Shown here: one piece after another, positions 9,024 to 24,385 of the stretch
Position numbering within the stretch: position 1 is the stretch's first letter
Layout of the letters: the number at the start of each line of letters is the position of its first letter
Assembly: GCA_009929485.1 (NCBI GenBank)
Contig: SAAJ01000022.1
Coordinates: 1 to 50,381 of the forward strand
Length of the DNA: 50,381 nt
Reading direction: 5' to 3'
Origin: Negativicutes bacterium
Lineage (GTDB): Bacteria; Bacillota; Negativicutes; Anaeromusales; Anaeromusaceae
Made by a program: the position numbers and the translations under genes
The notes under the pieces: generated by a model
Seen by the model: the letters and a program-made list of their open reading frames with translations, nothing else
What the model was told of the DNA's origin: nothing
The model's database searches: none

Positions 9024-11582
9024 ATGAAAGATGCCTGGAACGAAGTAGAAGGATACGGCTTGACAGCGGCAGAAGCGGTGAAGCGTCTGGCGGCAGAGGG
9101 CGCCAATGAGTTGCCGACGGAGCGGGAGCGGACTTTGGGAGCGATTGCTTTTGAGGTCGTTAAGCAGCCGATGTTCTTAATGCTCCTAGGCGGCGGCTTG
9201 ATTTACTTATGTTTGGGCGATTCTCGCGAAGCGATGCTGCTGTTGGGGTTTGTGGCGTTAGTGATGGGGATTACGCTGCATCAGGAGCGGCGGACGGAAC
9301 GCGCCTTGGGGCGGCTGCGTGATCTATCGAGCCCGCGGGCGCTGGTGCTGCGCGACGGTCAGGCTGTGCGAATTGCCGGGCGGGAAGTGGTGCGCGGCGA
9401 TGTGGTGTTGTTGACCGAAGGAGACCGTGTGCCGGCTGACGGTAAACTGCTGGCGGCGACGCATTTGCTTATTGATGAAAGTTTGCTTACCGGCGAAGCC
9501 GTACCGGTAGATAAGCAGCCCTGGATTGAGGCGGACGGAGCTCCTTGCGCGGCCGAAGAGCAGCAGTCTTGCGCGTATGCAGGTACGCTGGTTATTCAAG
9601 GACGAGGCGCGCTGGAGATTTTGGCGACAGGCGGGCGTTCTGAGATGGGGCGCATTGGTCAGTCTCTGCAGGAGGTGGCGGAAGCTAAAACGCCTTTGGA
9701 GCGTGAGGTCGCCCGTCTTGTGGTAGTGCTGAGCTTTGTCGGGATTTCCCTATGCTTGGTCATGGTGCTGGCCTTTGGCTTCTTCTGGGATGAATGGCTG
9801 CGGGGCATTTTAGCGGGTATTACTTTGGCCATGGCGATGCTGCCGGAGGAATTTCCGGTAGTGATGACGGTGTTCCTTGCTTTTGGCGCGTGGCGCATGT
9901 CGAAACGGCAGGTTCTGGCCAGAAGGATGGCCGCTATCGAAACGCTGGGTTCAGCTACGGTTCTTTGCGTAGATAAGACCGGGACGCTGACGCAAAACCG
10001 CATGTCTGTGCAAGCCGTGTTTGCCGCAGGGGCTGTGCATGCGTTGAAAGATGAAACCCAGCCGCTGCCGGAAGCTGTACACGAAGCCGTAGAATACGGT
10101 GTTTTGGCAAGTCGGCGGGACCCCGTAGATCCAATGGAACTGGCGTTTCGCCGCTTGGGTGAGAAGTGGCTGCCGGCGACAGAACACTGGCACGAAAATT
10201 GGGAACTTTGCCGGGAGTATCCGTTGGCGGCGGAGTTTTTGGCGGTAACGCAGGTTTGGCTGGATGATGCCGGGCGGCAGGTGGTAGCTTGTAAGGGCGC
10301 TCCCGAAGCGGTGCTGGCGGCGTGTTCGTTGACGGAAGATGAGCGCAGAGAAATTCAGGAGGCAGCGGAAAGTATGGCTGCTGGCGGCATGCGCCTGCTG
10401 GCGGTAGCGAAAGTTTTTTGGAAAGAGCAAGAACTGCCGGAGCTGGCCAAAAGCTTTCCTTTGACTTTTGTAGGGCTGGTCGGCTTGCACGATCCTCTCC
10501 GTCCAGGCGTCCCGGAGGCGGTGGCACAATGTCGGCAGGCTGGCGTGCGGGTCATTATGATGACTGGCGATTATGCGGGAACTGCCAGAAACATTGCTTT
10601 GCAGGCAGGGCTGGCGGAGAACCCGGAGGTGCTTAACGGCGCGCAAGTGGCTGCTATGGACGAGGCGGAGTTGGCGGCGGCGGTGCGGCGGACGCAAGTC
10701 TTTGCGCGCTTAGTCCCGGAGCAAAAGCTGCGCTTGGTCCGGGCGCTGCAGGCTAGCGGTGAAGTGGTGGCGATGACCGGCGACGGCGTGAATGACGCCC
10801 CGGCTCTAAAGGCCGCGCATATCGGTGTGGCTATGGGCGGGCGGGGGACGGATGTGGCGCGGGAGGCGGCCTCGTTAGTGCTGTTGGATGATAATTTTAC
10901 GTCCATTGTCGGCGCTGTAGCCATGGGACGTCGTATTTTCGATAATCTGTGCAAAGCCATGATCTATATTTTAGCCATTCATGTGCCCATAGCGGGCTTA
11001 TCTTTAGCGCCGCTGTTTTTGGAAGGAACTTCGGTGCTTTTTCCGGCGCATGTGGCTTTTTTGGAGATGATTATTGACCCGGCTTGCGCCATCGTTTTTG
11101 AAGCGGAAGCGTCAGAGGACAATGTGATGCAGCGGCCGCCCCGGGCAGCGGAGGCTTCTTTGCTCAACAAGGATATGCTAGGCAGCGGACTGCTGCAGGG
11201 CGCGGGGGTGCTGCTTTCGCTGTTAGGGCTTTTTCAAGTCATTTTATGGCTGGGACGCGATGTAGGAGAGGCCCGAACATTGACGTTTATAGCGTTAGTG
11301 TTTTGTAACTTGGCTTTGATTTTCAGCAATCGCTCTTTACAGGGGCGACTGCTGGAAACACATGGACGGAACAGCACGTTAGGGTGGATGGTGGTCGGTA
11401 CGCTGCTGTTGCTGGGGATGGTGCTTTTTACGCCGGCTTTGCAGGAAATGTTTCGCTTTGTGCCGGTCCATGTCAGTGATTTGCTGCTTTGTCTGTCTGC
11501 AGGCGTGATCAGTGTTGGCTTTTCCGGTCTATTGCGTCGCTGGTGGAGCTGGAGGCAGAGAGCGGCCGAACGGAAGAGGTAA
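9024..11582 (+). CDS. Cation-transporting P-type ATPase
   Basis: 852 aa. It has an N-terminal cation-ATPase domain (about 5-70), an actuator domain with TGEA (about 155), and the phosphorylation motif DKTGT (Asp about 317). KGAPE follows in the nucleotide domain, TGDGVND lies near 585, and the C-terminal membrane helices are present. In helix 4 the motif is PEEFP instead of the PEGLP of SERCA-type calcium pumps. In helix 6 DPACAIVFEAE replaces the SERCA-like N-x-x-x-D arrangement. It is thus a divergent P2-type pump and its ion cannot be named with certainty. The polyphosphate enzyme follows 88 nt later. Confidence 0.9.
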   Translation: MKDAWNEVEGYGLTAAEAVKRLAAEGANELPTERERTLGAIAFEVVKQPMFLMLLGGGLIYLCLGDSREAMLLLGFVALVMGITLHQERRTERALGRLRDLSSPRALVLRDGQAVRIAGREVVRGDVVLLTEGDRVPADGKLLAATHLLIDESLLTGEAVPVDKQPWIEADGAPCAAEEQQSCAYAGTLVIQGRGALEILATGGRSEMGRIGQSLQEVAEAKTPLEREVARLVVVLSFVGISLCLVMVLAFGFFWDEWLRGILAGITLAMAMLPEEFPVVMTVFLAFGAWRMSKRQVLARRMAAIETLGSATVLCVDKTGTLTQNRMSVQAVFAAGAVHALKDETQPLPEAVHEAVEYGVLASRRDPVDPMELAFRRLGEKWLPATEHWHENWELCREYPLAAEFLAVTQVWLDDAGRQVVACKGAPEAVLAACSLTEDERREIQEAAESMAAGGMRLLAVAKVFWKEQELPELAKSFPLTFVGLVGLHDPLRPGVPEAVAQCRQAGVRVIMMTGDYAGTARNIALQAGLAENPEVLNGAQVAAMDEAELAAAVRRTQVFARLVPEQKLRLVRALQASGEVVAMTGDGVNDAPALKAAHIGVAMGGRGTDVAREAASLVLLDDNFTSIVGAVAMGRRIFDNLCKAMIYILAIHVPIAGLSLAPLFLEGTSVLFPAHVAFLEMIIDPACAIVFEAEASEDNVMQRPPRAAEASLLNKDMLGSGLLQGAGVLLSLLGLFQVILWLGRDVGEARTLTFIALVFCNLALIFSNRSLQGRLLETHGRNSTLGWMVVGTLLLLGMVLFTPALQEMFRFVPVHVSDLLLCLSAGVISVGFSGLLRRWWSWRQRAAERKR

Positions 11583-11670: not shown

Positions 11671-13155
11671 ATGCTGGAGAAATTGGATTTGAGCAAAAAA
11701 ATAGCCAAAGACGTCTATAACGAAAAAATGGCCGAGTTGCGCTTGCGTCTGGGGGAACTGCAGCGGCAGGCCAAGGACCAAGAATTGCCTGTAGTGATTG
11801 TTTTTGAGGGCTGGAGTGCTTCCGGCAAGGGACGCTTGATTAATGAATTGCTGCAGGCGTTGGATCCGCGCGGCTTTAGCGTCTTTGCTATGGATGAGCC
11901 AACTTTGGAAGAAAAAGCCCGGCCTTTTTTGCGTCGTTATTGGGTGCGTCTCCCCGCGGACGGGCGTATTGCTATTTTTGACCGTTCTTGGTATCGGGCG
12001 GTTTTGACGGATCGCGTGGTGGATGAGGGCAACCGTCATCATTGGCAGCAGGGCTACCAGCAAATCAATTCCTTTGAAAAGCAGATTGCCGACCACGGAA
12101 CGTTGGTGCTTAAATTTTTTCTTCATATTAGTAAAGGCGAGCAGAAAAAACGTTTTAAAAATATGGGAAAAAACGCCGCCAATCTTTGGCGGCTCCATGA
12201 ATCGGATCATTGGCAGCATGCCCATTATGACGAGCTGGGCGTGGCCATTGAAGAGATGCTGGAGAAAACCGATTTTTCTCATGCTCCGTGGACCTTGGTA
12301 GAGGCGGAAGACCAGCGTTTTGCGGCTTTGAAAATATATAATCAAGTAGTGGGAGCCTTGGAGGCGGCGCTGCAAAAGCCGCGGCGGCAGGCCGTTGTTT
12401 TGGAGCCGGCCGAGCGTGTAGATGCGGCGGTAATGCATGACTTGGATTCTTCGATTTTAGATAAGGCGGACTTATCACTGCAGGTATCGGCTGCGGAGTA
12501 CAAAAAGCGCACCAATGCTCTGCAAGAGGAGCTGCGCATGCTGCAATACTCGCTGTTTGCCAAACATGTGCCGACAGTGATTGTTTTTGAAGGGTGGGAT
12601 GCGGCTGGCAAGGGCGGCTGCATTCGGCGGCTGACGCAAAAACTGGATCCACGAGGTTATGGCGTGGTTCCCATTGGCGCGCCCAATGATTTGGAACGGC
12701 GGCATCATTACCTCTGGCGTTTTTGGCGAGAATTTCCGCGGGCGGGAGAAATCGCCATTTTTGACCGCTCTTGGTACGGACGGGTGTTGGTGGAGCGTGT
12801 GGAAGGATTTTGTCAGCAGGAGGAATGGAAGCGCGCCTATCATGAAATCAACGAAATGGAAGAGCAATTGGCCTTGGCAGGCGGCGTATTGATTAAGTTT
12901 TGGCTGCATATTGACCAGGAGGAGCAACTACAACGCTTTCAAGAGCGGCAGGACAACTCCTATAAGCAATGGAAGATTACGCCGGAGGACTGGCGCAACC
13001 GGGAGAAGTGGCAGGCCTACCGTCAAGCGGTGGATGAAATGTTGTTTCGCACCAGTACGGTCAAGGCGCCCTGGACGTTGGTGGAAGCCAATTCTAAAAA
13101 TTATGCGCGCCTGAAAGTGCTGGAAACGGTAGTGGCAGCCTTACGGAATCACTGA
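11671..13155 (+). CDS. pap: Polyphosphate:AMP phosphotransferase, two fused PPK2 domains
   Basis: 494 aa, made of two tandem PPK2 domains (about 10-240 and 265-490). Family knowledge: class II PPK2 (Pap, EC 2.7.4.33) uses polyphosphate to phosphorylate AMP to ADP. Each half has a Walker A (FEGWSASGKG near 46; FEGWDAAGKG near 307) and a Walker B-like IFDRSWY motif. In the first half the conserved Asp of GWDxxGKG is Ser, and the arm following the P-loop is less conserved. This fits the known pattern in which the C-terminal half is catalytic and the N-terminal half structural. A GCAGGAGGG ribosome binding site precedes the start. Confidence 0.93.
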   Translation: MLEKLDLSKKIAKDVYNEKMAELRLRLGELQRQAKDQELPVVIVFEGWSASGKGRLINELLQALDPRGFSVFAMDEPTLEEKARPFLRRYWVRLPADGRIAIFDRSWYRAVLTDRVVDEGNRHHWQQGYQQINSFEKQIADHGTLVLKFFLHISKGEQKKRFKNMGKNAANLWRLHESDHWQHAHYDELGVAIEEMLEKTDFSHAPWTLVEAEDQRFAALKIYNQVVGALEAALQKPRRQAVVLEPAERVDAAVMHDLDSSILDKADLSLQVSAAEYKKRTNALQEELRMLQYSLFAKHVPTVIVFEGWDAAGKGGCIRRLTQKLDPRGYGVVPIGAPNDLERRHHYLWRFWREFPRAGEIAIFDRSWYGRVLVERVEGFCQQEEWKRAYHEINEMEEQLALAGGVLIKFWLHIDQEEQLQRFQERQDNSYKQWKITPEDWRNREKWQAYRQAVDEMLFRTSTVKAPWTLVEANSKNYARLKVLETVVAALRNH

Positions 13156-13363
13156 TTAACCGAAATACGGAAAAATTTCTTTTTGCAACTTCCCAGGAGT
13201 TAGAAAATGCTTGTGCGAGAGCGCGCCGCAGAGCGGTATTCTCTCCGGTGAAGCTATTTTCTTGATACCTTGAAATTCGGTCTTTGTCGGCGGCAGAGCG
13301 CACCTGGAGGCCCTTCCTTTTTGCGTGTCTTCTCTGTATGATAATGCATTGAGGAGGGTGAGT

Positions 13364-13630
13364 ATGAACGACGAGTTAAGACAATTACTGGCGCTGTGCC
13401 ACCGCTATGTCGAGGGTGAAATGGAGCTGGAAGCATTTGCGGAAGACTTTGATTTGTATTTGACGGAGCATGAAGGCGAGCTTCTTTTGCACGAAAGCGC
13501 CTATGATTTGCTGGATGAGATTCGTGATTCTTTGCTGTATATTCAACCGGACGATGCCGGCTTTGCGACGGAAGAAAGCGACTTAAAAGAGCGCATTCGG
13601 GCGGGCTTAGAGCAGCTGGATCGCTTTTAA
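13364..13630 (+). CDS. Small acidic protein of unknown function
   Basis: 88 aa and strongly acidic, almost entirely predicted helix, with no membrane segment. It begins MNDELRQLLALCHRYVEGEMEL. The size, acidity and helical pattern recall small immunity-type helical proteins, but no family is recognised. The start at 13364 is chosen because GAGGAGG lies 6-7 nt upstream; an earlier in-frame start at 13325 lacks a site. It stands alone, followed by a perfect inverted repeat. Confidence 0.8.
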   Translation: MNDELRQLLALCHRYVEGEMELEAFAEDFDLYLTEHEGELLLHESAYDLLDEIRDSLLYIQPDDAGFATEESDLKERIRAGLEQLDRF

Positions 13631-13978: not shown

Positions 13979-15034
13979 GTGCGGATTGAAAAAAAAGATA
14001 TAGATGCAGCTGTGCGCAGCGGCATTTTAAATAGAGTGCAGGCGGAAGAACTATGGCAGCTATGGCAAGAACAGAAAGAGGATGAGCCGCGTTTAAGTAT
14101 GTCTCATTTGGCGTATTATTTAGGCGTGTTGTTGGTCATGGGGGCTATGGGCTGGTTTTTGACCAAGGCTTGGCTGGAACTAAGCGGGCTGGTGCTGTTA
14201 TGCACAGCTATTTTATATGCTTTTATTTTTCTTGTAGGCGGGCTATTGCTGCGGGGCCGCCGGGGAGGGAGGCTGCCGGGAGGTCTGGCTGTGACGACAG
14301 CGGTGTGCATGACGCCTTTGGCGGTGTATGGCTTTTTGAAATATACCGGTTATTGGGAAGCGCAGCTGACGTTAATGGCTGCCGGCGGTTTTTACAGCCT
14401 AGTGCCGCAGCACCGTCTTTGGATGGAAGGGGCGACAGCCGTACTGTCTTTATTGGTGGCCAGAGTGGTTCCCTTTCCTTTTTTATTGGCGCCTTTCGTT
14501 GTGTCTTTGTGGATGATGGTGCAGGATTTAGTGCCTCTTTGGCATTGGTTTGCACCATGGATTTCCGACGCTTGGGCTAATACTTGGCTGGGATGCCTGC
14601 TTTTTATCTTGGCCGTAGAAGCGGATCGAGGGCGTTGGCGCCGCAATGGCCCGGATATGGCGTGTTGGCTGTATTTGGCGAGCGGAGCTTCTTTGGCTGC
14701 CGGCTTGTATGTTCTAAGCTGGTGGGGGCTGGCTGGCTGGCCGCGCTGGACGACGCTGGTGGCGGCAAGCGTATTTTTGCTGCTGGCGCCCCTTTTCCAG
14801 CGTTCTATTTTTGTGGTGACAGGCGCCGTGGGCTATGTAGGGTATCTGGGCTATCTGGCGTATGAAGTGTTTGCTGATTCATTGTATTTTCCGCTGGTGC
14901 TGAGTGCCTTGGGAGTGCTGTGCGTAGGGGCCGGCTGGCTGTATCAACGCAAGGCGGCTCGCTGGCGGACGCGGCTGCTGGGCAGCCTGCCAGCCTGGCT
15001 GTGCAAGCGTTTGCCTCCGTCAGCAGAAGAGTGA
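13979..15034 (+). CDS. Multi-pass membrane protein, DUF2157-like
   Basis: 351 aa. A soluble N-terminus of about 45 residues (begins MRIEKKDIDAAVRSGIL) precedes roughly nine hydrophobic segments. This arrangement resembles DUF2157-type membrane proteins, but I would not fix the family. The start is GTG at 13979, with TTGGAGG 9-10 nt upstream. It opens a five-gene set: the next start is 19 nt downstream, and the later genes overlap by 1-4 nt. A role in the cell envelope is inferred from that context. Confidence 0.8.
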   Translation: MRIEKKDIDAAVRSGILNRVQAEELWQLWQEQKEDEPRLSMSHLAYYLGVLLVMGAMGWFLTKAWLELSGLVLLCTAILYAFIFLVGGLLLRGRRGGRLPGGLAVTTAVCMTPLAVYGFLKYTGYWEAQLTLMAAGGFYSLVPQHRLWMEGATAVLSLLVARVVPFPFLLAPFVVSLWMMVQDLVPLWHWFAPWISDAWANTWLGCLLFILAVEADRGRWRRNGPDMACWLYLASGASLAAGLYVLSWWGLAGWPRWTTLVAASVFLLLAPLFQRSIFVVTGAVGYVGYLGYLAYEVFADSLYFPLVLSALGVLCVGAGWLYQRKAARWRTRLLGSLPAWLCKRLPPSAEE

Positions 15035-15053
15035 GTTTGGAAAGGAAGAAAGT

Positions 15054-15506
15054 ATGGCGCGTTTAGAATATCGTTTGTTGGACGAGGCGAAAGGCTATCC
15101 GGTGCTGTATGTGTATGAAGGAATTTCGCATGGGGAAGTAGCGGCCCGGTTTATTTGCGATCGCTTTGTCAAGGAAGGCGCGGTTTATGAACGCACATCT
15201 TGCGCCATTGAACCGGATGGCTTTGTCATTTATATACAGCCGGACTCTAAAGGGAGAGTAATGTGGCCAGCGGCGGCGACCAAGACAGCCGGCCTGCCGT
15301 TGGAGATTGCCGCTTGCGGCAGCGGCTTGCTTTCGGCGCAGCGGCAGTTGGTATGGTCTTTTTTGACGTATGAAGAACTGCAGTTGCAACTGCTGGCTGA
15401 CTACCGGATGCACCAAGGCGAAGAGTGGCTGAAGGTGTCGGCGGAGCTGGACGAAGACCGCAGCGCGTACGTGTATTATATGGAGAAAGTGAAGGAGGGC
15501 GCATGA
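15054..15506 (+). CDS. Protein of unknown function in the GSP-synthase-like cluster
   Basis: 150 aa, soluble, mixed alpha/beta, with no signal peptide. It begins MARLEYRLLDEAKGYPVLYVYEG. I do not recognise the family. In E. coli the comparable cluster carries the cytoplasmic proteins YjfI and YjfK, and this could play a similar part, but similarity cannot be judged by eye. Its stop overlaps the start of the lipoprotein gene (ATGA). GGAAAGGAAG precedes the start. Confidence 0.78.
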   Translation: MARLEYRLLDEAKGYPVLYVYEGISHGEVAARFICDRFVKEGAVYERTSCAIEPDGFVIYIQPDSKGRVMWPAAATKTAGLPLEIAACGSGLLSAQRQLVWSFLTYEELQLQLLADYRMHQGEEWLKVSAELDEDRSAYVYYMEKVKEGA

Positions 15507-15811
15507 AGAAACGTCATTGGGTAGTCGGTCTTTTTATCGCGGCTTCTTTGGCGGCAGGCGGCTGTTCTTCGCCGACGCAGCAGGCAAAAGAAGCGCCGGG
15601 AGATGACGATGAATTGGTGGAAGCCGGAACGGCTCCGGGGGGACAGCGGCAAGGCAGCATAGCGCCAGTGCCATATATTTATGGAGGCTCCCGCTATTTT
15701 GGCTCCGGCGGCGGAAGAAGCGGCGTTGCCGGTGATGGCGCGGCGACTTCCGGCATTTCTCAGGGCAAGGGCGGGCTGGGCAGTCAGAGCGCCTCATCTG
15801 GAGGCGGCTGA
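15503..15811 (+). CDS. Small Gly/Ser-rich lipoprotein
   Basis: 102 aa. A lipoprotein signal (MKKRHWVVGLFIAASLAAGGC, lipobox around LAAGGC, Cys about 21) is followed by a low-complexity Gly/Ser/Ala-rich mature part. The C-terminal half is dense in GGG and SGG runs. It overlaps the upstream stop and its own TGA overlaps the next ATG, so it is translationally coupled on both sides. In E. coli yjfM, a lipoprotein gene, occupies the same kind of position beside a GSP-synthase-like gene. The function is unknown. Confidence 0.85.
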   Translation: MKKRHWVVGLFIAASLAAGGCSSPTQQAKEAPGDDDELVEAGTAPGGQRQGSIAPVPYIYGGSRYFGSGGGRSGVAGDGAATSGISQGKGGLGSQSASSGGG

Positions 15812-17034
15812 TGGAGAACTATGCGGTCCGGCGCGAACGCTGGTACGGGCCGATGAAGACTCTATTTCCCTGGGAGACTATTGCCAAAGATGAATATGCC
15901 TTAGCGTCCTGGACTCCTATTTTTTCGCAGCAATGTCAGGAGCTGCAGGCGGCGGCGGAAGGCTTGGCCGCCTTATGGCATAAAGTGGCTTTGGTTGCCT
16001 CGCGAGGGGACAGCCGGCTGTTGCGCTGGCTGGGTTTGCCTGCTGGCGCGCGGGAGGCTGTGCGGGAGGCGTTGCAGCTTCCATGGTTGACGGCGTTGGG
16101 ACGGTTTGACTTTGTTCAGACTGCGGCAGGGTGGAAAGTTTTGGAGTATAACTGCGATACCCCCAGCGGCGTGGTGGAAGCCTTGGCGGTGAACGGGAAA
16201 ATTTGCGCTTGCGAAGGGCGACAAAATCCCAATGCCGCCGGCGAAGAACTTTTGCGTCAGGCCATTGCCGAATCCTTGCAAATAGCGCGTCGAGCTGGCT
16301 TGCACGGCGTGGCTGCGTTTAGCGCGTTGGGAAGTCACAGTGAAGATGCCGGTACGATGAAGTACTGGCAATCGCTGGCGGCAGAAGGCGAGTTTGTGCC
16401 GCTGGAAGAACTGCGGTATGAAAGGGAGTCTTTGACTTCAGCGGCTTCGGAGAAAATTGGCTGCTGGTTTCGCCTTCATCCCTGGGAGGTCATGGTGCGG
16501 GAATGCGCTGCTGATGGGTTTCCAACGGGAAAGCGCGTATTGGAGCTGGCAGCTTCCAGGAAGCTCTTGGCGGTGAATCCGCCGCTGGCTTTAGTGGGCC
16601 AGTCCAAGGCGCTGCAGGCCCTTATTTGGCAGTTGTACGAGGCGGAAGAGTTCTTGACACAGCCGGAACGGCATTTGGTGCAAACCTATATGCTGCCGAC
16701 CTACCGTCAGAATGTGTTTTTAGGAAAAGCTTCGTATGTGCGAAAACCTTTGTGGGGGAGAGAAGGCGGCGGCGTGACGCTGCATGCTGCGGACGGAGGC
16801 TTGCTTTTGGGGAGTCGCGGCGGCTGGCATGGCGCTGCTATCTATCAGCAAGCGGTGGAGTTGGAACGTATGCAGGTTATGACGCAGAAGGGCTTGCAAG
16901 AAGGCCGGCGCCTTTGGGGCGCCTTCGTGGCTGGCGGCTCTTTTGCTGGGGTGTTGGTGCGCCTTGGCGCGGCTATTACGGACGATCAGGCGTGGATGAC
17001 GCCGGTGTATTTGAGCGAGGAGGGAAGCGAATGA
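15811..17034 (+). CDS. Glutathionylspermidine-synthase-like ATP-grasp ligase
   Basis: 407 aa, covering the ATP-grasp amidoligase domain of the YgiC/YjfC family (PF03738). Visible features are the RFDFVQTAAGWKVLEYNCDTPSG block (shown in part; acidic and Asn ligands), NPPLALVGQSKALQALIW, and KPLWGREGGGV in the nucleotide-binding region. No amidase domain is present, unlike true E. coli Gss. Family members may ligate peptides or amines; the substrate is unknown and glutathionylspermidine is unlikely in this type of organism. It overlaps both neighbours by 1-4 nt. The DUF350 gene behind it strengthens the link to the YjfC type. Confidence 0.88.
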   Translation: MENYAVRRERWYGPMKTLFPWETIAKDEYALASWTPIFSQQCQELQAAAEGLAALWHKVALVASRGDSRLLRWLGLPAGAREAVREALQLPWLTALGRFDFVQTAAGWKVLEYNCDTPSGVVEALAVNGKICACEGRQNPNAAGEELLRQAIAESLQIARRAGLHGVAAFSALGSHSEDAGTMKYWQSLAAEGEFVPLEELRYERESLTSAASEKIGCWFRLHPWEVMVRECAADGFPTGKRVLELAASRKLLAVNPPLALVGQSKALQALIWQLYEAEEFLTQPERHLVQTYMLPTYRQNVFLGKASYVRKPLWGREGGGVTLHAADGGLLLGSRGGWHGAAIYQQAVELERMQVMTQKGLQEGRRLWGAFVAGGSFAGVLVRLGAAITDDQAWMTPVYLSEEGSE

Positions 17035-17477
17035 TGATGCTAAACATGCAGGGACAATGGCCGCATGTCGTAAATTTCCTACTATATCTTGCGGCGGCGC
17101 TGCCTCTTTTGGGAATTGGCGTTTGGCTCTTTGCCAGGCTGACTCCTTATAAAGAAGGCGAACTGCTGCATAACGGCGCGCAAGACGGAATGGCCGGACG
17201 GGCGGCGGAAGCGGCGGCGCACGACTTGGGCGGCAAGCTGCTGGGGCTGACGTTGGTTTTGGCTTCCGCTATTTTTCATTCCGTTCATATTTGGGATTTG
17301 CTTTTTTGGGGCGCCGTGGGCATTGTCAGCCAGGTGGTTGTGGCTAAGCTGTTTGAAAGAGTTACCCCGTACCGGGTGTCGCAGGAGATTCCTAAAGGCA
17401 ATGTGGCGGTAGGGATTTTTTCCGCCCGTCTCAGTGTGGCGGCGGGACTGCTTTTGGCGGCCTTGATCAGCTATTGA
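17031..17477 (+). CDS. DUF350 (YjfL-like) membrane protein
   Basis: 148 aa with four hydrophobic segments arranged as two repeats of two (about 12-34, 64-84, 88-108 and 126-147), as in DUF350 (PF03994). Three in-frame ATGs lie at 17031, 17034 and 17037; the first overlaps the upstream TGA. The long ORF extending upstream in this frame is a shadow of the ligase gene. DUF350 genes commonly sit beside YjfC-type ligases and PspA-like proteins, which suggests an envelope-stress role. It is the last gene of the cluster. Confidence 0.85.
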   Translation: MMMLNMQGQWPHVVNFLLYLAAALPLLGIGVWLFARLTPYKEGELLHNGAQDGMAGRAAEAAAHDLGGKLLGLTLVLASAIFHSVHIWDLLFWGAVGIVSQVVVAKLFERVTPYRVSQEIPKGNVAVGIFSARLSVAAGLLLAALISY

Positions 17478-17701: not shown

Positions 17702-18007
17702 GTGGGAAGCAAAATTCAAAAAAACCGCAGTGATTCGGATATGTTGCAAGGATATGTAGAGGAACGTTCTTTTGAGCACCAATGGTTGGGCGAGTCTACG
17801 CCGCAGCCGAGACCGGCGGTAGGGCGCAAAGGAAGTAAAAACGCGGAAAGTGAATCGTTTTTGCCTGTAAAGACGAGGGAAGAGCTGGAAAAAGCGTTAG
17901 TGGCCATTAAGCTGGAGTTGTATAAAGAGGGCGTGCAAGAGTATCATCTGCAGGTGAAACGAGCGGGTAACAGCATTACGTTGACGGTGCTTCCAGGCAA
18001 AGGCTAA
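17702..18007 (+). CDS. Small basic protein of unknown function upstream of the activator gene
   Basis: 101 aa, hydrophilic. The N-terminal half is polar and probably disordered, while the C-terminal half (TREELEKALVAIKLELYKEG onward) looks like a small alpha/beta fold. It starts with GTG at 17702, with TGGAGGACTGA upstream. It ends 12 nt before the HPr-sigma-54 activator gene, so it is probably co-transcribed with it. No known family is recognised, and its role in dha control is untested. Confidence 0.7.
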   Translation: MGSKIQKNRSDSDMLQGYVEERSFEHQWLGESTPQPRPAVGRKGSKNAESESFLPVKTREELEKALVAIKLELYKEGVQEYHLQVKRAGNSITLTVLPGKG

Positions 18008-18019
18008 GCGGAGGATTTC

Positions 18020-20071
18020 ATGGCATACGGGCAGCGGATAGTTTTTCGGCATCCCAAGGGGCTTCATACCCGGGTAGCGGCTATGGTGGTGCAGCGTTTC
18101 CAAGAACTCAGACAGCGCTACGGCAGCGAGATTACCTTGCGCAAGGAAACCGGCAAAGTAGTGCCGGCCAATAATTTAATGCTTCTAGTGGGCCTGAAGG
18201 TGCGCGCTGGAGATGTGTTATGGGTTGGCGCTGATGGCGCTGAAGCGGGAGAAGCTGCGCAAGAGATGGCTGCGTTTTTGGAAGGGGATTTTTCTTTGGC
18301 GGCGGCCCCTGCCTGGCAGGGCATGGATGCCGTGTTGCAGGAGAATGCCTTTACGGCGGAACAGATTTTTCGCAGTATCGCCAGCGGCTTGATGGTTACG
18401 GATCAAGAGGACCGCATTACCGTGTTCAATCCGGCGGCGGAGCGCATTATGGGCGTGACTGCGGCGGAAGTCATCGGTCGCAAGGTGTTCGAAGCTATTC
18501 CTGGTTCTCGGTTGCATATTGTCAACCAGACGGGAGAAGCAGAGTTGGGGCAACGGCAGTTGACAGGGCGTTCGGTGACGGTTACCAATCGGACGCCGAT
18601 TGTGATTGACGGCAAAGTTTGCGGCGCTGTGGCTGTGTTTGAGGATATTTCGATCTTAGAACGCGTTTCCGGGGAATTGCAAGAGGTAAAGGAACTAAAA
18701 GAGCGCCTGCAGCTGATTTTGGAATCGGTGCAGGACGGCATCTGCGTTTTTGATAAACAAGGTGTGATTACCTATGTGAATGATGCGTATGTGGCGATGT
18801 GCGGTGAGAAACGGGAAGACCTTTTGGGGCAGCGTGTAGGCGATATTTCTCCCGGTGGGGGGCGTAGTTTGATGCTGACAAGCGGCCAAGCGGTGCTGGG
18901 CAGCATCAGTCGCAAACGCAGCGGCGTGACGTTGATTTCGAATATTAATCCGATTTTTGTGGATGGCGCCTTGACTGGCGGTTTATCGGTCAGTAAAAAT
19001 ACGACGGAACTGCAATTGCTGGCGGATAAGCTGAACGAGGCGAATGCGCGGGCGGACTATTTGGAAGAAGAGTTGCTTCGCACCCGACGGCCTCATGCGG
19101 CGTTTCACAATTTCATTGGTCGCAGCGGCAAGGTGAGAGATTGCCTGGCGATGGCTTCGAAAGCGGCGGCGGCGCAGGCTACGGTGCTCATACGAGGCGA
19201 AAGCGGCACCGGCAAGGAATTGGTTGCCGAAGGGATCCATTATGCCAGCCCTCGTTCCAAGGGACCTTTTATCCGGGTTAATTGCGGCGCTATTCCTTCG
19301 GCGCTCTTGGAAAGCGAACTTTTTGGCCATGAAAAAGGCGCTTTTACCGGAGCTGTGCGGCGGAAGCTGGGGCGATTTGAACTGGCTGACGGCGGCAGTC
19401 TGTTTTTGGATGAAATCGGCGAAATGGATAAGACTATGCAAGTGAAGCTGCTGCGAGCGCTGCAGCAACGGGAGATAGAACGTGTCGGCGGTGAAGAGAC
19501 GGTGCGTGTGGATGTGCGAATTATTGCCGCTACCCATCGGGATCTGGAGGCCATGGTAGCTGCTGGAGACTTTCGGGAGGATTTGTATTATCGCTTGAAT
19601 GTAGTACCGGTACTGTTGCCGCCTTTGCGGGAACGTAAAGAAGATATTCCTCTTTTGGCGGAATATTTTTTAGAAAAAGTTTCCCGGCGTGAAGGGTTTT
19701 CCTGCCAAGGGTTTCAACGGGAAGCGCTGGAAGCGTTTCAAGGATACAACTGGCTAGGAAATGTGAGGGAATTAGAGAATGTAGTAGAGCGTATGGTGAC
19801 GCTGACCGAAGGGGTTCAGTTGGGCTTGGAGGATTTACCTCTCTATTTGCGCAAGGAAATGGGCGTGGAACCGGTTTTGCCAGCTTTGCGACAGGAAGAG
19901 CCGCTGTTGCCCTGGACAGAGTATGAAAAAAATATCATTGCTTTAGCGTTAGAACGCTGCGGCAGTTATAATGCAGCAGGTAAGGCGCTAGGTTTGACGC
20001 ATAAGACGATTGCGGCGAAGGCGCGCAAGTATGGCTTGGAAAAACAGACATCTTGGGTAAAAACGGACTAG
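18020..20071 (+). CDS. Sigma-54-dependent activator with N-terminal HPr-like domain (probable dha operon activator)
   Basis: 683 aa. The order is: HPr-like domain (about 1-90), PAS (about 113-222), PAS (about 228-335), AAA+ sigma-54 domain (about 360-595) and a Fis-type HTH (about 637-680). In the AAA+ part GESGTGKE (Walker A, near 393), GAFTGA (near 441) and LFLDEIGEM (Walker B) are intact, so it should open sigma-54 complexes. The HPr part keeps the phosphorylatable His in GLHTRVA but has lost the Pro and the regulatory Ser region of true HPr. It could therefore sense PTS phosphorylation state. The next genes are dhaKLM-ptsHI behind a sigma-54 promoter, so it is a functional counterpart of DhaR, with HPr in place of GAF. 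Confidence 0.92.
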
Positions 20072-20232: not shown

Positions 20233-21231
20233 ATGAAAAAAGTCATTAATGTACCCGAGCAAGTTGTAGAGGAAATGCTTCAGGGGGTTGTCGCGGCACA
20301 TCCTCAATATGTACGTCGTGTAGAGGGTTTTGACGTTATTGTGCGCGCCCAAGCTCCTGTACAGGGTAAAGTGGCCTTGGTCAGCGGCGGCGGCAGCGGC
20401 CATGAACCTTCTCATGGCGGTTTTGTCGGTAAAGGGATGTTGGACGGAGCGGTAGCCGGAGCGGTATTTACGTCTCCGACTCCGGATCAAGTGTATGAAG
20501 CGGTGAAAGCGGTAGATGGCGGCAAAGGCGTACTACTGGTCATCAAAAACTACACTGGCGATATTATGAACTTTGAAATGGCTGCGGAAATGGCGGATGC
20601 CGAAGGCATTAAAGTAGAAAAAGTAGTTGTCAATGATGACGTTGCGGTAGAGAATAGCACGTGGACTACTGGTCGTCGCGGCATCGCCGGCACGGTGTTT
20701 GTGCATAAAATTGCCGGCGCTAAAGCGGAAACAGGCGCTTCGCTGGAGGAAGTGAAAGCGGTCGCGGATAAGGTTGTCGCCAATGTTCGTTCCATGGGCA
20801 TGGCTCTGGCGCCTTGCACCGTACCAGCTGCAGGCAAGCCTAGCTTTGTTTTGGGTGAAGACGAAATGGAAATTGGCATGGGCATTCACGGCGAACCGGG
20901 AACGCACCGGGAAACTGTGAAAAAAGCGGATGAAATTGCGGCGCATTTGCTGGATAAAATTTTAGCTGATATCACTTTGTCCGCAGGAGATGAAGTGGCT
21001 GTGCTGGTCAACGGCTTGGGCGCGACGCCGTTGATGGAGCTGTACATTGTGAACCGTAAAGTGGCGGAAACCTTGGCGGCCAAAGGCGTCAAAACCGCCA
21101 AGACTTTTGTAGGAAATTACATGACCTCTCTGGAAATGGCCGGATTCTCCATTACATTGTTGAAATTGGATGCGGAATTAAAAGAGTTGCTGTTGGCCCC
21201 GGCGGATACGCCGGCATTGGTGCAGTTTTAA
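20233..21231 (+). CDS. dhaK: PTS-dependent dihydroxyacetone kinase, substrate-binding subunit DhaK
   Basis: 332 aa. DhaK binds dihydroxyacetone covalently through a His and transfers phosphate from DhaL (EC 2.7.1.121). The signature VSGGGSGHEPSHGGFVG (about 49-65), IKNYTGDIMNFEMA and the covalent His in MGIHGEPG (near 219) are present. The start at 20233 follows AATTAAGG; the longer frame upstream runs through the promoter. It is the first gene of a five-gene operon. No glycerol dehydrogenase is in the window, so the source of dihydroxyacetone is not shown. Confidence 0.96.
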   Translation: MKKVINVPEQVVEEMLQGVVAAHPQYVRRVEGFDVIVRAQAPVQGKVALVSGGGSGHEPSHGGFVGKGMLDGAVAGAVFTSPTPDQVYEAVKAVDGGKGVLLVIKNYTGDIMNFEMAAEMADAEGIKVEKVVVNDDVAVENSTWTTGRRGIAGTVFVHKIAGAKAETGASLEEVKAVADKVVANVRSMGMALAPCTVPAAGKPSFVLGEDEMEIGMGIHGEPGTHRETVKKADEIAAHLLDKILADITLSAGDEVAVLVNGLGATPLMELYIVNRKVAETLAAKGVKTAKTFVGNYMTSLEMAGFSITLLKLDAELKELLLAPADTPALVQF

Positions 21232-21350: not shown

Positions 21351-21986
21351 ATGAATACGAAAGCAACAGAGCTCATCAATGCGGTGGGAGCTATGGTGAT
21401 AGAGGAAAAACAATTTCTGACGGATTTGGACGCCGCTATTGGCGATGGTGATCATGGGATTAATATGGCTCGCGGTTTCGAGGCGGTTAAAACCAAACTG
21501 GCTGGAGCTCCCGAGGGAGATGTCGGTGCGGCGTTGAAACTGGTGGGCATGACCTTGATTTCGACTGTGGGCGGCGCCGCAGGACCTTTATATGGTACGG
21601 CGTTCTTGCGGGCTGCCGGAGCGGCGCAAGGGAAAGAAATGGTCGACGAGGATACGGCGCAGAAAATGCTGGAGGCGGCAGTCGGCGGTATCAAGGAACG
21701 CGGCAAGGCGACGCGAGGGGAAAAGACCATTCTAGATGCCCTGGAGCCTGCAACCGAAGCCTTTGCACAGGCTAGAGAAGACGGCAAGACCATGCTGGAA
21801 TGTTTGGAAGCAGCCCAAAACGCCGCGGCGGCAGGGGTTGAATATACCAAAACCATTATTGCTACAAAAGGACGCGCTAGCTATCTGGGAGAACGCAGCA
21901 TCGGGCATCAAGATCCCGGCGCTACTTCGACAACCTTGATGCTGCAGACCTTGTATCGGCAGCTGGCTGAGAAACAGGAGGGATAG
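21351..21986 (+). CDS. dhaL: Dihydroxyacetone kinase ADP-binding subunit DhaL
   Basis: 211 aa, the usual length. The Mg-ADP-binding Asp cluster is visible in DLDAAIGDGDHGINM (about 24-38), and the GTSG-like phosphate loop region is represented by STVGGAAGPLYG. DhaL carries ADP as a permanent cofactor that is phosphorylated by DhaM and passes phosphate to dihydroxyacetone on DhaK. It has a GGGAGG ribosome binding site. It is 119 nt after dhaK, and that gap contains a GC-rich hairpin (GGCAGCGGG...CCCGCTGCC, about 21294-21319) that may tune expression. Confidence 0.95.
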   Translation: MNTKATELINAVGAMVIEEKQFLTDLDAAIGDGDHGINMARGFEAVKTKLAGAPEGDVGAALKLVGMTLISTVGGAAGPLYGTAFLRAAGAAQGKEMVDEDTAQKMLEAAVGGIKERGKATRGEKTILDALEPATEAFAQAREDGKTMLECLEAAQNAAAAGVEYTKTIIATKGRASYLGERSIGHQDPGATSTTLMLQTLYRQLAEKQEG

Positions 21987-22669: not shown

Positions 22670-24385
22670 ATGGAAAAGCTGCAAGGACTGGCTGTGGTGC
22701 CGGGCAGCGCCATGGGACCGCTTCTGGTGTTGCGGGATGAATTGACGGCGGCATTAAAGTCGTATGCGCCTTCGGCGACGGCGGAAGAACTGGAAAAGCT
22801 GGAGTCGGCTGCGGCGACAGCGGCGTTGCAGCTGGGAGAGGCGGCTAGGCGCTGTCGGGAAGCCGGCCAAGATGAGCAGGCGGGAATTTTAGAGGCGCAT
22901 CAACTGATGGCTCAAGATACGGCCTTGCTGACGGCAATGCAAGAGGCGGTCGACGCGGGCGCTCCGGCGGCGGCGCTGCAGGCTAGCGAGCAGTATGCGG
23001 CTATGTTTGAAGCCATGGATGACGCCTATTTGCGAGAGCGCGCCGCGGATGTTCGCGATGTAGGCAAGCGCATCGCCAAGGTGCTGCTGGGGTTGACGGA
23101 GCCGAAGCCTGTAGAGGGAGGCGCCATATTAGCGGCGGAGGATGTAGAGCCGTCTTATCTGGCGGCGTTGCCGGCAGGCGCGGTAAAAGCGGTTCTGTTA
23201 GGGCAGGGCAGCACTACGTCACATGCGGTAATTATTGCTAAGGCGAGGGGCATTCCGGCCATTGTAGGGTTAAATCAGGTTTTAACGGGCTTGACTAGCG
23301 GCCAGGAAGTTTTCGTGGATGCGGGGCGCGGGGAAGTTTGGGTGGACCCGGATATGAAAACTCGCGAACAGGCGCTGCAACAGATTCAAAGAGAAGCCGA
23401 GCAGCTCAAACGCGATTTGTCGCTGGCCGGGGAAACGGCAGTGACTACCGATGGGCTTAAAATGACTTTGGCGGCGAATATTGGTTCGCCTCAAGACATG
23501 GAAACCGCGGTGCGGTACGGCGCGGAAGGGGTCGGCCTTTTTCGTACGGAATTTCTTTTTATGGGACATGACAGCGCCCCCGACGAAGAGGAACAGTATC
23601 AAGCGTATAAAGCGGCCATTGAAGGCTGTCAAGGAGAGCTGTGCGTCATCCGGACGATGGATATTGGCGGTGATAAGCCGTTGCATTATCTACAGGTTCC
23701 TAAAGAAGATAATCCGTTTTTGGGCTGGCGGGCCATTCGAATCAGCTTGGAGCGGGAGGATCTGTTCTTGCCGCAGTTAAAAGCCATTCTGCGGGCGGCG
23801 GTGCATGGAAAAGCAGCCATTATGCTGCCTATGGTGAGCCAGGTAGAAGAGATTCGCCAAGCAAGGCTGGCTTTGCAGCGCGCTCGAGAAGCGCTGCAAA
23901 AAGAAGGCAAGTCCTTTGGAAACGAGGTTCCCTTAGGTATCATGGTGGAGACGCCTGCAGCGGCGGCCATGGCGCCGCTATTAGCGCAGGAATGTGATTT
24001 CTTTAGTATCGGTACGAATGATTTAGTGCAATATACCTTGGCGGTAGACCGGGGCAACTCGAAAATTAGCGGTCTTTACAGTCATTTTCATCCGGCGGTG
24101 CTGCGTTTGATTCAGCAGACGGCGCAGGCGGCCCATGAAGCAGGAATTTGGGTTGGCATGTGCGGAGAAATGGCGGGCGATCCCCTGGCGACGCCGTTAC
24201 TGGTGGCGTTGGGTTTTGATGAACTCAGCATGAGCGCTCCGGCGCTGCCGCGCGTAAAGGAACGAGTCCGCTCTTTATCTCGCCATGAAGCGGACGAATT
24301 ATTGGCGCAGGTGTTGAGTTTGAAAGAAAGCACTGCGATTCGCGAACTCTTGCGTCGAAATATGGAACAAGAATCAGAAGGCTAA
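22670..24385 (+). CDS. ptsI: Phosphoenolpyruvate-protein phosphotransferase (Enzyme I)
   Basis: 571 aa, full length. The N-terminal HPr-binding domain (about 1-145), the phosphohistidine domain with GQGSTTSHAVIIAKARGIPA (His near 187) and the C-terminal PEP-binding barrel (about 250-540, with GVGLFRTEFLFM, DIGGDKPLHY, FFSIGTNDLVQYTLAVDR and MCGEMAGDP) are complete. EI takes phosphate from PEP to HPr (EC 2.7.3.9). Coupled to ptsH with 4 nt spacing. A terminator follows about 70 nt after the stop. Confidence 0.97.
   Translation: MEKLQGLAVVPGSAMGPLLVLRDELTAALKSYAPSATAEELEKLESAAATAALQLGEAARRCREAGQDEQAGILEAHQLMAQDTALLTAMQEAVDAGAPAAALQASEQYAAMFEAMDDAYLRERAADVRDVGKRIAKVLLGLTEPKPVEGGAILAAEDVEPSYLAALPAGAVKAVLLGQGSTTSHAVIIAKARGIPAIVGLNQVLTGLTSGQEVFVDAGRGEVWVDPDMKTREQALQQIQREAEQLKRDLSLAGETAVTTDGLKMTLAANIGSPQDMETAVRYGAEGVGLFRTEFLFMGHDSAPDEEEQYQAYKAAIEGCQGELCVIRTMDIGGDKPLHYLQVPKEDNPFLGWRAIRISLEREDLFLPQLKAILRAAVHGKAAIMLPMVSQVEEIRQARLALQRAREALQKEGKSFGNEVPLGIMVETPAAAAMAPLLAQECDFFSIGTNDLVQYTLAVDRGNSKISGLYSHFHPAVLRLIQQTAQAAHEAGIWVGMCGEMAGDPLATPLLVALGFDELSMSAPALPRVKERVRSLSRHEADELLAQVLSLKESTAIRELLRRNMEQESEG

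Follow-up and report, generated by a model that had tools for sequence, protein, structure and literature searches.

The window, a stretch of 50,381 nucleotides from a Negativicutes bacterium of the Anaeromusaceae (assembly GCA_009929485.1, contig SAAJ01000022.1), carries five genes on one strand between positions 13979 and 17477. They are labelled A (multi-pass protein), B (150-residue protein), C (lipoprotein), D (GSP_synth ligase) and E (DUF350 protein). The original prediction, made from the letters of the sequence, described them as an envelope cluster resembling E. coli yjfL-yjfM-yjfC and lacking PspA. The features are as follows.

A, 13979..15034, + strand: multi-pass membrane protein of 351 amino acids with a GTG start and a weak match to DUF2157; outside the conserved unit
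B, 15054..15506, + strand: protein of 150 amino acids without a Pfam, NCBIfam or PHROGs name; two beta-beta-alpha-beta-beta-beta repeats
C, 15503..15811, + strand: predicted lipoprotein of 102 amino acids with a signal, a Gly/Ser-rich body and a conserved C-terminal tail
Tail of C (residues 79-102), 15737..15808, + strand: KGGLG motif at 15767-15781 and terminal Gly-Gly-Gly at 15800-15808
D, 15811..17034, + strand: ATP-grasp ligase of 407 amino acids, GSP_synth (PF03738), YjfC/YgiC-like
E, 17031..17477, + strand: DUF350 (YjfL-like) membrane protein of 148 amino acids; alternative ATG at 17034 or 17037

The operon and its conserved unit

The gene positions and the overlaps given in the original prediction were confirmed: B and C overlap by 4 nucleotides (ATGA), C and D by 1 (TGATG), and D and E by 4 (ATGA). 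A and B are separated by 19 nucleotides without overlap. The E protein is a clear member of DUF350 (PF03994; E-value 2.4e-31, 109 bits against a cut-off of 26), the match of A to DUF2157 falls below the Pfam cut-off (25.3 bits against 32.4), and neither B nor C matches any Pfam family. Profile searches of NCBIfam and PHROGs added to Pfam only remote ligase and DUF350 matches. Promoter and terminator scans gave signal at the level of chance.

A search for B in 300 Negativicutes genomes gave 24 matches, of which 20 were strong and the other 4 weak and partial. The weak matches were excluded from the count; at L046, the only such locus inspected, the match is a peptidase-like protein without an adjoining ligase or DUF350 gene. 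The order B-C-D-E, on a single strand, is found in all 20 genomes with a strong match, with C identified by position and tail in L035, L038 and L040 and with the B of L045 broken by masked or unknown bases. Recurrence in all 20 indicates that the grouping exceeds chance. A adjoins B in just four genomes, all of the window's genus. Another 14 genomes of the class have relatives of A, and in the six of these that also have B the relative sits elsewhere. The conserved unit is B-C-D-E and A is no member of it, so that the predicted YjfLMC-like cluster and its joint conservation stand for the ligase, the DUF350 protein, the Gly/Ser-rich lipoprotein and B, and fall for A.

The ligase is more widespread than the unit. 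PF03738 is present in 63 of the 300 class genomes, which leaves 43 with a ligase and without B; B is absent from all 20 loci examined among these. When genome contigs were scanned with alignment A3 and the best 80 loci kept, these spanned Bacillota, Pseudomonadota, Bacteroidota, Actinomycetota and Campylobacterota; an earlier scan with the single query P0003 had given zero matches. In the set of 118 ligase loci described below, B is present in 36, every one from Bacillota. DUF350 adjoins the ligase in 20 of 20 B-type Negativicute loci, yet it is present in just 69 of the 118. PspA (PF04012, E-value at most 1e-3) was not found across the window's whole assembly, as had been predicted, and the same search was positive in 9 of 14 control genomes. 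The window's genome does contain a gene for spermidine synthase (SpeE).

The AlphaFold2 model of B (predicted local distance difference test, pLDDT, 91.7) has two copies of the beta-beta-alpha-beta-beta-beta unit, which hhalign matches to each other at 96.6% (E-value 4.7e-10). B is, on this comparison of its two halves, an internal duplication. Its invariant residues include Y6, R7, P16, R32, C35, K40, E124, W125 and D133-E134-D135-R136. The fold gave zero matches in the PDB at an E-value of at most 1e-3 and zero with Z of at least 5 among 995 chains, and a profile search of PDB sequences gave no match. Weak fold similarities to, among others, glutamine synthetases, protein L/G and the ubiquitin-like domains of USP7 were set aside. 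The original prediction placed B in the position of the PspA-like and other partners; homology lends this no support, as profile comparison gave a probability of 0.4% with YjfK and of 1.1% with a five-row alignment of DUF2491, the YjfK family. An identity with DUF4178 was likewise rejected (hhalign 0.7%).

D belongs to PF03738 by a wide margin (E-value 2.6e-46, 159 bits against a cut-off of 29.3), and its best matches among PDB sequences are YjfC (E-value 3.3e-8) and YgiC. The closest fold to its AlphaFold2 model (pLDDT 88.4) is that of E. coli YjfC (7uk6; Foldseek E-value 4.1e-23, template modelling score 0.76/0.80), and GspS, YgiC and trypanothione synthetase rank lower. D and E. coli Gss have the synthetase fold in common (Foldseek E-value 2.1e-21), and the Gss residues R316, D318, E330, N332, K498, K533, Q568 and R598, which we take to be ATP/Mg- and phosphate-binding, are all retained in D by alignment-based numbering. 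D differs from Gss in having no amidase domain and in four substitutions, S335T, E392D, T441L and C539E, which the alignment also places in YjfC and YgiC and which fall at what is presumably the glutathione site.

A tree of 19 rows, with one outgroup on a long branch, places the Bacillota ligases in a clade of their own (100/100), and YjfC, YgiC, Gss and the ligases of other phyla make up the other half. D is therefore a sister-type enzyme and not YjfC/YgiC proper. The predicted membership in the YjfC/YgiC family holds in that YjfC is the closest structure by both sequence and fold, but the tree sets the Bacillota clade apart. E. coli YgiC and YjfC are said, in the title of Pederick 2023, to be peptide-spermidine ligases, and the product names of the E. 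coli annotation likewise call them so.

The tail protein and its ligase

In an alignment of the C family (n = 20) the mean column identity is 0.65 at the N-terminus and 0.62 in the tail, and 0.40 in the middle. The sequence of the window's C contains a putative lipobox, AAGGC, and GC is found there in most relatives. A metal-loop-like sequence, DxNxDGYCDxDG, is present in many relatives but absent from the C of the window. DUF1190 matched neither C nor any of 19 relatives at an E-value of 0.1.

Nearly every ligase is preceded by a small protein with a Gly/Ser-rich end that contains [RK]GG[FI]G or a near variant. Ligase loci were ranked by similarity to D and 122 were examined; four were dropped, three as repeats of other loci (L099, L100, L104) and one as the window's species (L027), leaving 118. 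The motif was found by rule in the directly upstream gene of 100 of the 118. One tail protein was assigned to each locus, ten of them by hand from elsewhere in the locus, including L162, where the rule had taken the wrong open reading frame (ORF). Among the assigned proteins, 109 of 118 have the motif or its like within the last 60 residues. Two hundred shuffles of the same residues gave a mean of 12.9 and a maximum of 22 of 118, and the motif occurs in 74 of 5833 other ORFs and in 4 of 152 other ORFs with G/S-rich ends. Among the 100 upstream genes found by rule, the first position is K in 38, R in 34 and S in 18, the second is G in 78 and the fourth is F in 48 and I in 40, the third being G by definition; the median distance of the motif from the C-terminus is 9 residues.

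The last residue is also constrained. It is G in 61, S in 51, E in 5 and A in 1 of the tail proteins, so that 112 of 118 are G/S-terminal against 66.5 expected from the composition at positions -21 to -2. The tail is more widely common than the rest of the protein, since 111 tail-less bodies, with Ser/Gly-rich stretches masked, split at an E-value of 1e-3 into 13 clusters (sizes 45, 40, 7, 4, 3, 3, 2, 2 and five singles). When the bodies were clustered unmasked, 107 of 118 joined together.

The tail accompanies the ligase and not DUF350. Twelve DUF350 loci were taken at 12-14 kb, and two of them, L217 and L219, are Caulobacterales ligase loci in which a tail protein adjoins DUF350. In the other ten, which are ligase-free (12-13 kb), no G/S-ending tail protein adjoins DUF350; together with the presence of DUF350 in only part of the 118 ligase loci, this separates the two associations. 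A loose regular expression flagged unrelated ORFs (for example in L210, L211, L212 and L220), none of which is a G/S-ending neighbour of DUF350.

The E. coli operons yjfIJKLMC (NC_000913 4410133-4414191) and ygiBC resemble the window in that the ligase directly follows a lipoprotein-like tail protein. The tails of YgiB and YjfM contain RGG[YF]G and end in GG, like the tail of C, and DUF350 is present in the yjf operon as YjfL. The gene order is K-L-M-C in E. coli and B-C-D-E in the window, which has no adjoining YjfI (DUF2170), YjfJ (PspA) or YjfK (DUF2491). C and the DUF1190 lipoproteins have the tail motif in common and not the family match.

Several variants of the arrangement were seen. 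In a second group of Negativicute ligases, without B (L078-L097), many tails terminate in a KSGFGSAGxRSSSS-like sequence, and 10 of the 20 loci examined have DUF350. The Paenibacillaceae ligases L120-L123 have larger partners (223-276 amino acids), whose bodies cluster separately. In L103 (Thermoflavimicrobium) and L119 (Baia), B and DUF350 are rearranged around the ligase, and the tail motif is gone while the end is still SSGG; L103 carries two DUF350 genes and L119 has B downstream.

A proposed modification of the lipoprotein C-terminus

The operon type itself is already known. The third operon group of Ravi et al. 2024 comprises an ATP-grasp ligase, DUF350 and a DUF1190 lipoprotein, with or without PspA (PMC11237479), and the ligase, DUF350 and the lipoprotein recur in the window. 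The PspA-less variants described there carry DUF4247/DUF2617 or band-7-SHOCT, whereas the extra partner in the window is B. The CesT/Tir-PspA dyad of that group was not found in the window's genome by the PF04012 search, and variants without the dyad are also described. Ravi et al. proposed that such operons monitor polyamines or the aminopropylation of other substrates; in the passages of that paper drawn on here, the tail is not mentioned and no substrate is named. The tail of C would be one such substrate. The open-licence literature in PubMed Central (PMC), supplementary tables being outside the search, yielded in the parts consulted no description of these tails or of B as a partner (including PMC12568646, PMC10948618, PMC12270671 and PMC4858940). 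What the YjfC/YgiC ligases, of which E. coli has two, naturally act on is not stated in the same parts. Within this literature, both the tail rule and the partnership with B are new.

We give a probability of roughly one half to the reading that B-C-D-E is the Bacillota version of a YjfLMC-type operon and that D amidates the C-terminus of C with a polyamine. The observed basis consists of the gene order, a tail with a G/S end in several phyla, intact ATP/Mg-type residues, a YjfC-like fold and a spermidine synthase gene in the genome. D would recognise the C-terminal tail of C through the [RK]GG[FI]G-type motif and would use ATP to join the carboxylate of the terminal Gly or Ser to an amine, most likely that of spermidine or another polyamine. 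The ligation and the identity of the amine we infer from the preference for the terminal residue, the motif, the common active site and the peptide-spermidine activity that the above title ascribes to YjfC and YgiC. The joining would be analogous to the reaction of glutathionylspermidine synthetase at the last residue, Gly, of glutathione. C would thereby gain a cationic C-terminus and would act in the envelope, partly together with DUF350. The earlier suggestion that the low-complexity part of the lipoprotein is a candidate target of the ligase is strengthened by the tail pattern across phyla. If the tail is the substrate, bacterial lipoproteins would be modified post-translationally with a polyamine, and a single explanation would serve many DUF350/PspA operons with polyamine genes.

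A number of points weigh against amidation of the tail. An exported lipoprotein would be out of reach of ATP and the cytosolic ligase, which lie on the other side of the membrane, unless it is modified before export, and 3 of 20 C orthologues (L035, L038, L040) are without the lipobox Cys. Common ancestry could explain part of the tail pattern, and the locus set, being ranked by similarity to D, over-represents the relatives of D. Where several ORFs qualified as the tail protein, the choice leaned to the motif-bearing one. The tail protein lies away from the upstream position in nine loci, on the opposite strand in six. The strict motif is missing in nine loci (L089, L090, L103, L111, L116, L119 and L121-L123), although all nine tail proteins nonetheless end in G or S; the last residue is Glu in five of the 118 tails and Ala in one.

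It is possible, if rather doubtful, that the tail serves in docking or sorting and is itself no substrate; the ligase would make small cytosolic peptide-polyamine conjugates, and the lipoprotein would bind or sense them or tether the ligase. The most constant part of the tail is the internal motif, some nine residues before the end, and not a fixed last residue; the ligase is predicted to be cytosolic and the tail exported; and the activity of YgiC and YjfC is, by the same title, reported on peptides. Against a docking element, the terminal residue itself is constrained to G or S beyond composition.

A further set of lipoproteins comes from DUF350 operons that have no ligase. DUF4247 was searched in three groups of genomes and matched in 49 of 79, 8 of 79 and 48 of 200. 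In the first group, the protein ends in K or R in all 30 loci inspected. In actinobacteria, an SpeE-like gene is present in 8 of 8 DUF4247 loci, and each of the eight proteins has one terminal Lys, preceded by Gly or Thr. This pattern suggested a single-Lys rule, which was then tested in Bacilli, where DUF4247 loci with SpeE (L291-L297) have a GK end in 7 of 7. Taken over 62 distinct DUF4247 proteins recognised by profile, the end is GK in 10 of 10 with SpeE; two or three K/R are found among the last three residues in 52 of 52 without SpeE, as judged from a flank of 1.5 kb for most and from stretches of 5.8-13 kb for 14. Five more actinobacterial proteins, read by hand, bring the single-Lys end to 15 of 15 SpeE loci. 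Some of the 52 proteins without SpeE have no DUF350 in the stretch examined.

These ends lead to a broader, tentative scheme, which we consider less probable than not. DUF350-linked lipoproteins would acquire a polycationic C-terminus by three routes, each legible from the last residues: (i) with an ATP-grasp ligase, a Gly/Ser end would receive a polyamine on its carboxylate; (ii) with a membrane SpeE-like aminopropyltransferase, the Lys of a Gly-Lys or Thr-Lys end would be aminopropylated; and (iii) with neither enzyme, the basic residues would be encoded directly (KRR, RRR). The window's operon would follow route (i).

Pfam finds DUF4247 together with Spermine_synth in L291 and together with DUF4178 in L212. 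DUF4178 matched in 1 of 119 genomes of the order of G324, below the cut-off. In L209, the sole proteobacterial SpeE-type locus examined, no SpeE-type lipoprotein like Ctha_1186 was found. L263, L265, L284 and L285 have tandem DUF4247 lipoprotein genes, both polybasic-ended, and no DUF350 or PspA was found near them.

The tail classes could also be lineage markers only: each enzyme type would have been inherited along with its lipoprotein, and the terminal residues would be unrelated to the enzyme. We regard this as unlikely. The classes do go with lipoprotein subfamilies and clades (in DUF4247 they track subfamilies, and independent switches may be few), and most unmasked bodies of the ligase-linked proteins cluster together. 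Against common descent as the whole explanation, the motif and the G/S end persist across the 13 clusters of masked bodies, and the single-Lys end of DUF4247 proteins beside SpeE, first noticed in actinobacteria, was found again in Bacilli.

Cadaverine or putrescine is attached to the D-Glu of peptidoglycan in Selenomonas, and the use of polyamines by PF03738 enzymes, as generally understood, would suit such a role in Negativicutes with polyamine-bearing peptidoglycan, but it is highly improbable that the Negativicute ligase makes this attachment, as the family is found in so few genomes of the class (63 of 300) and the same tail partner occurs in Paenibacillus, E. coli, Bacteroidota and actinobacteria.

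Other genes of the window

Upstream of A, a cation P-type ATPase (9024-11582) is followed by a 494-residue protein with two PPK2 domains (11671-13155). Two ORFs of 101 amino acids without a Pfam family, at 13325-13630 and 17702-18007, lie on either side of the five genes. Both adjoin the same genes in the relatives L027 and L028, and the ORF at 17702-18007 is also found in L029.

Downstream, a sigma-54 activator that combines an HPr domain with two PAS domains (18020-20071) directly precedes the genes for DhaK (20233-21231) and DhaL (21351-21986), and enzyme I of a phosphotransferase system (PTS) is encoded at 22670-24385. The activator, linked to phosphotransfer, may control dihydroxyacetone kinase.

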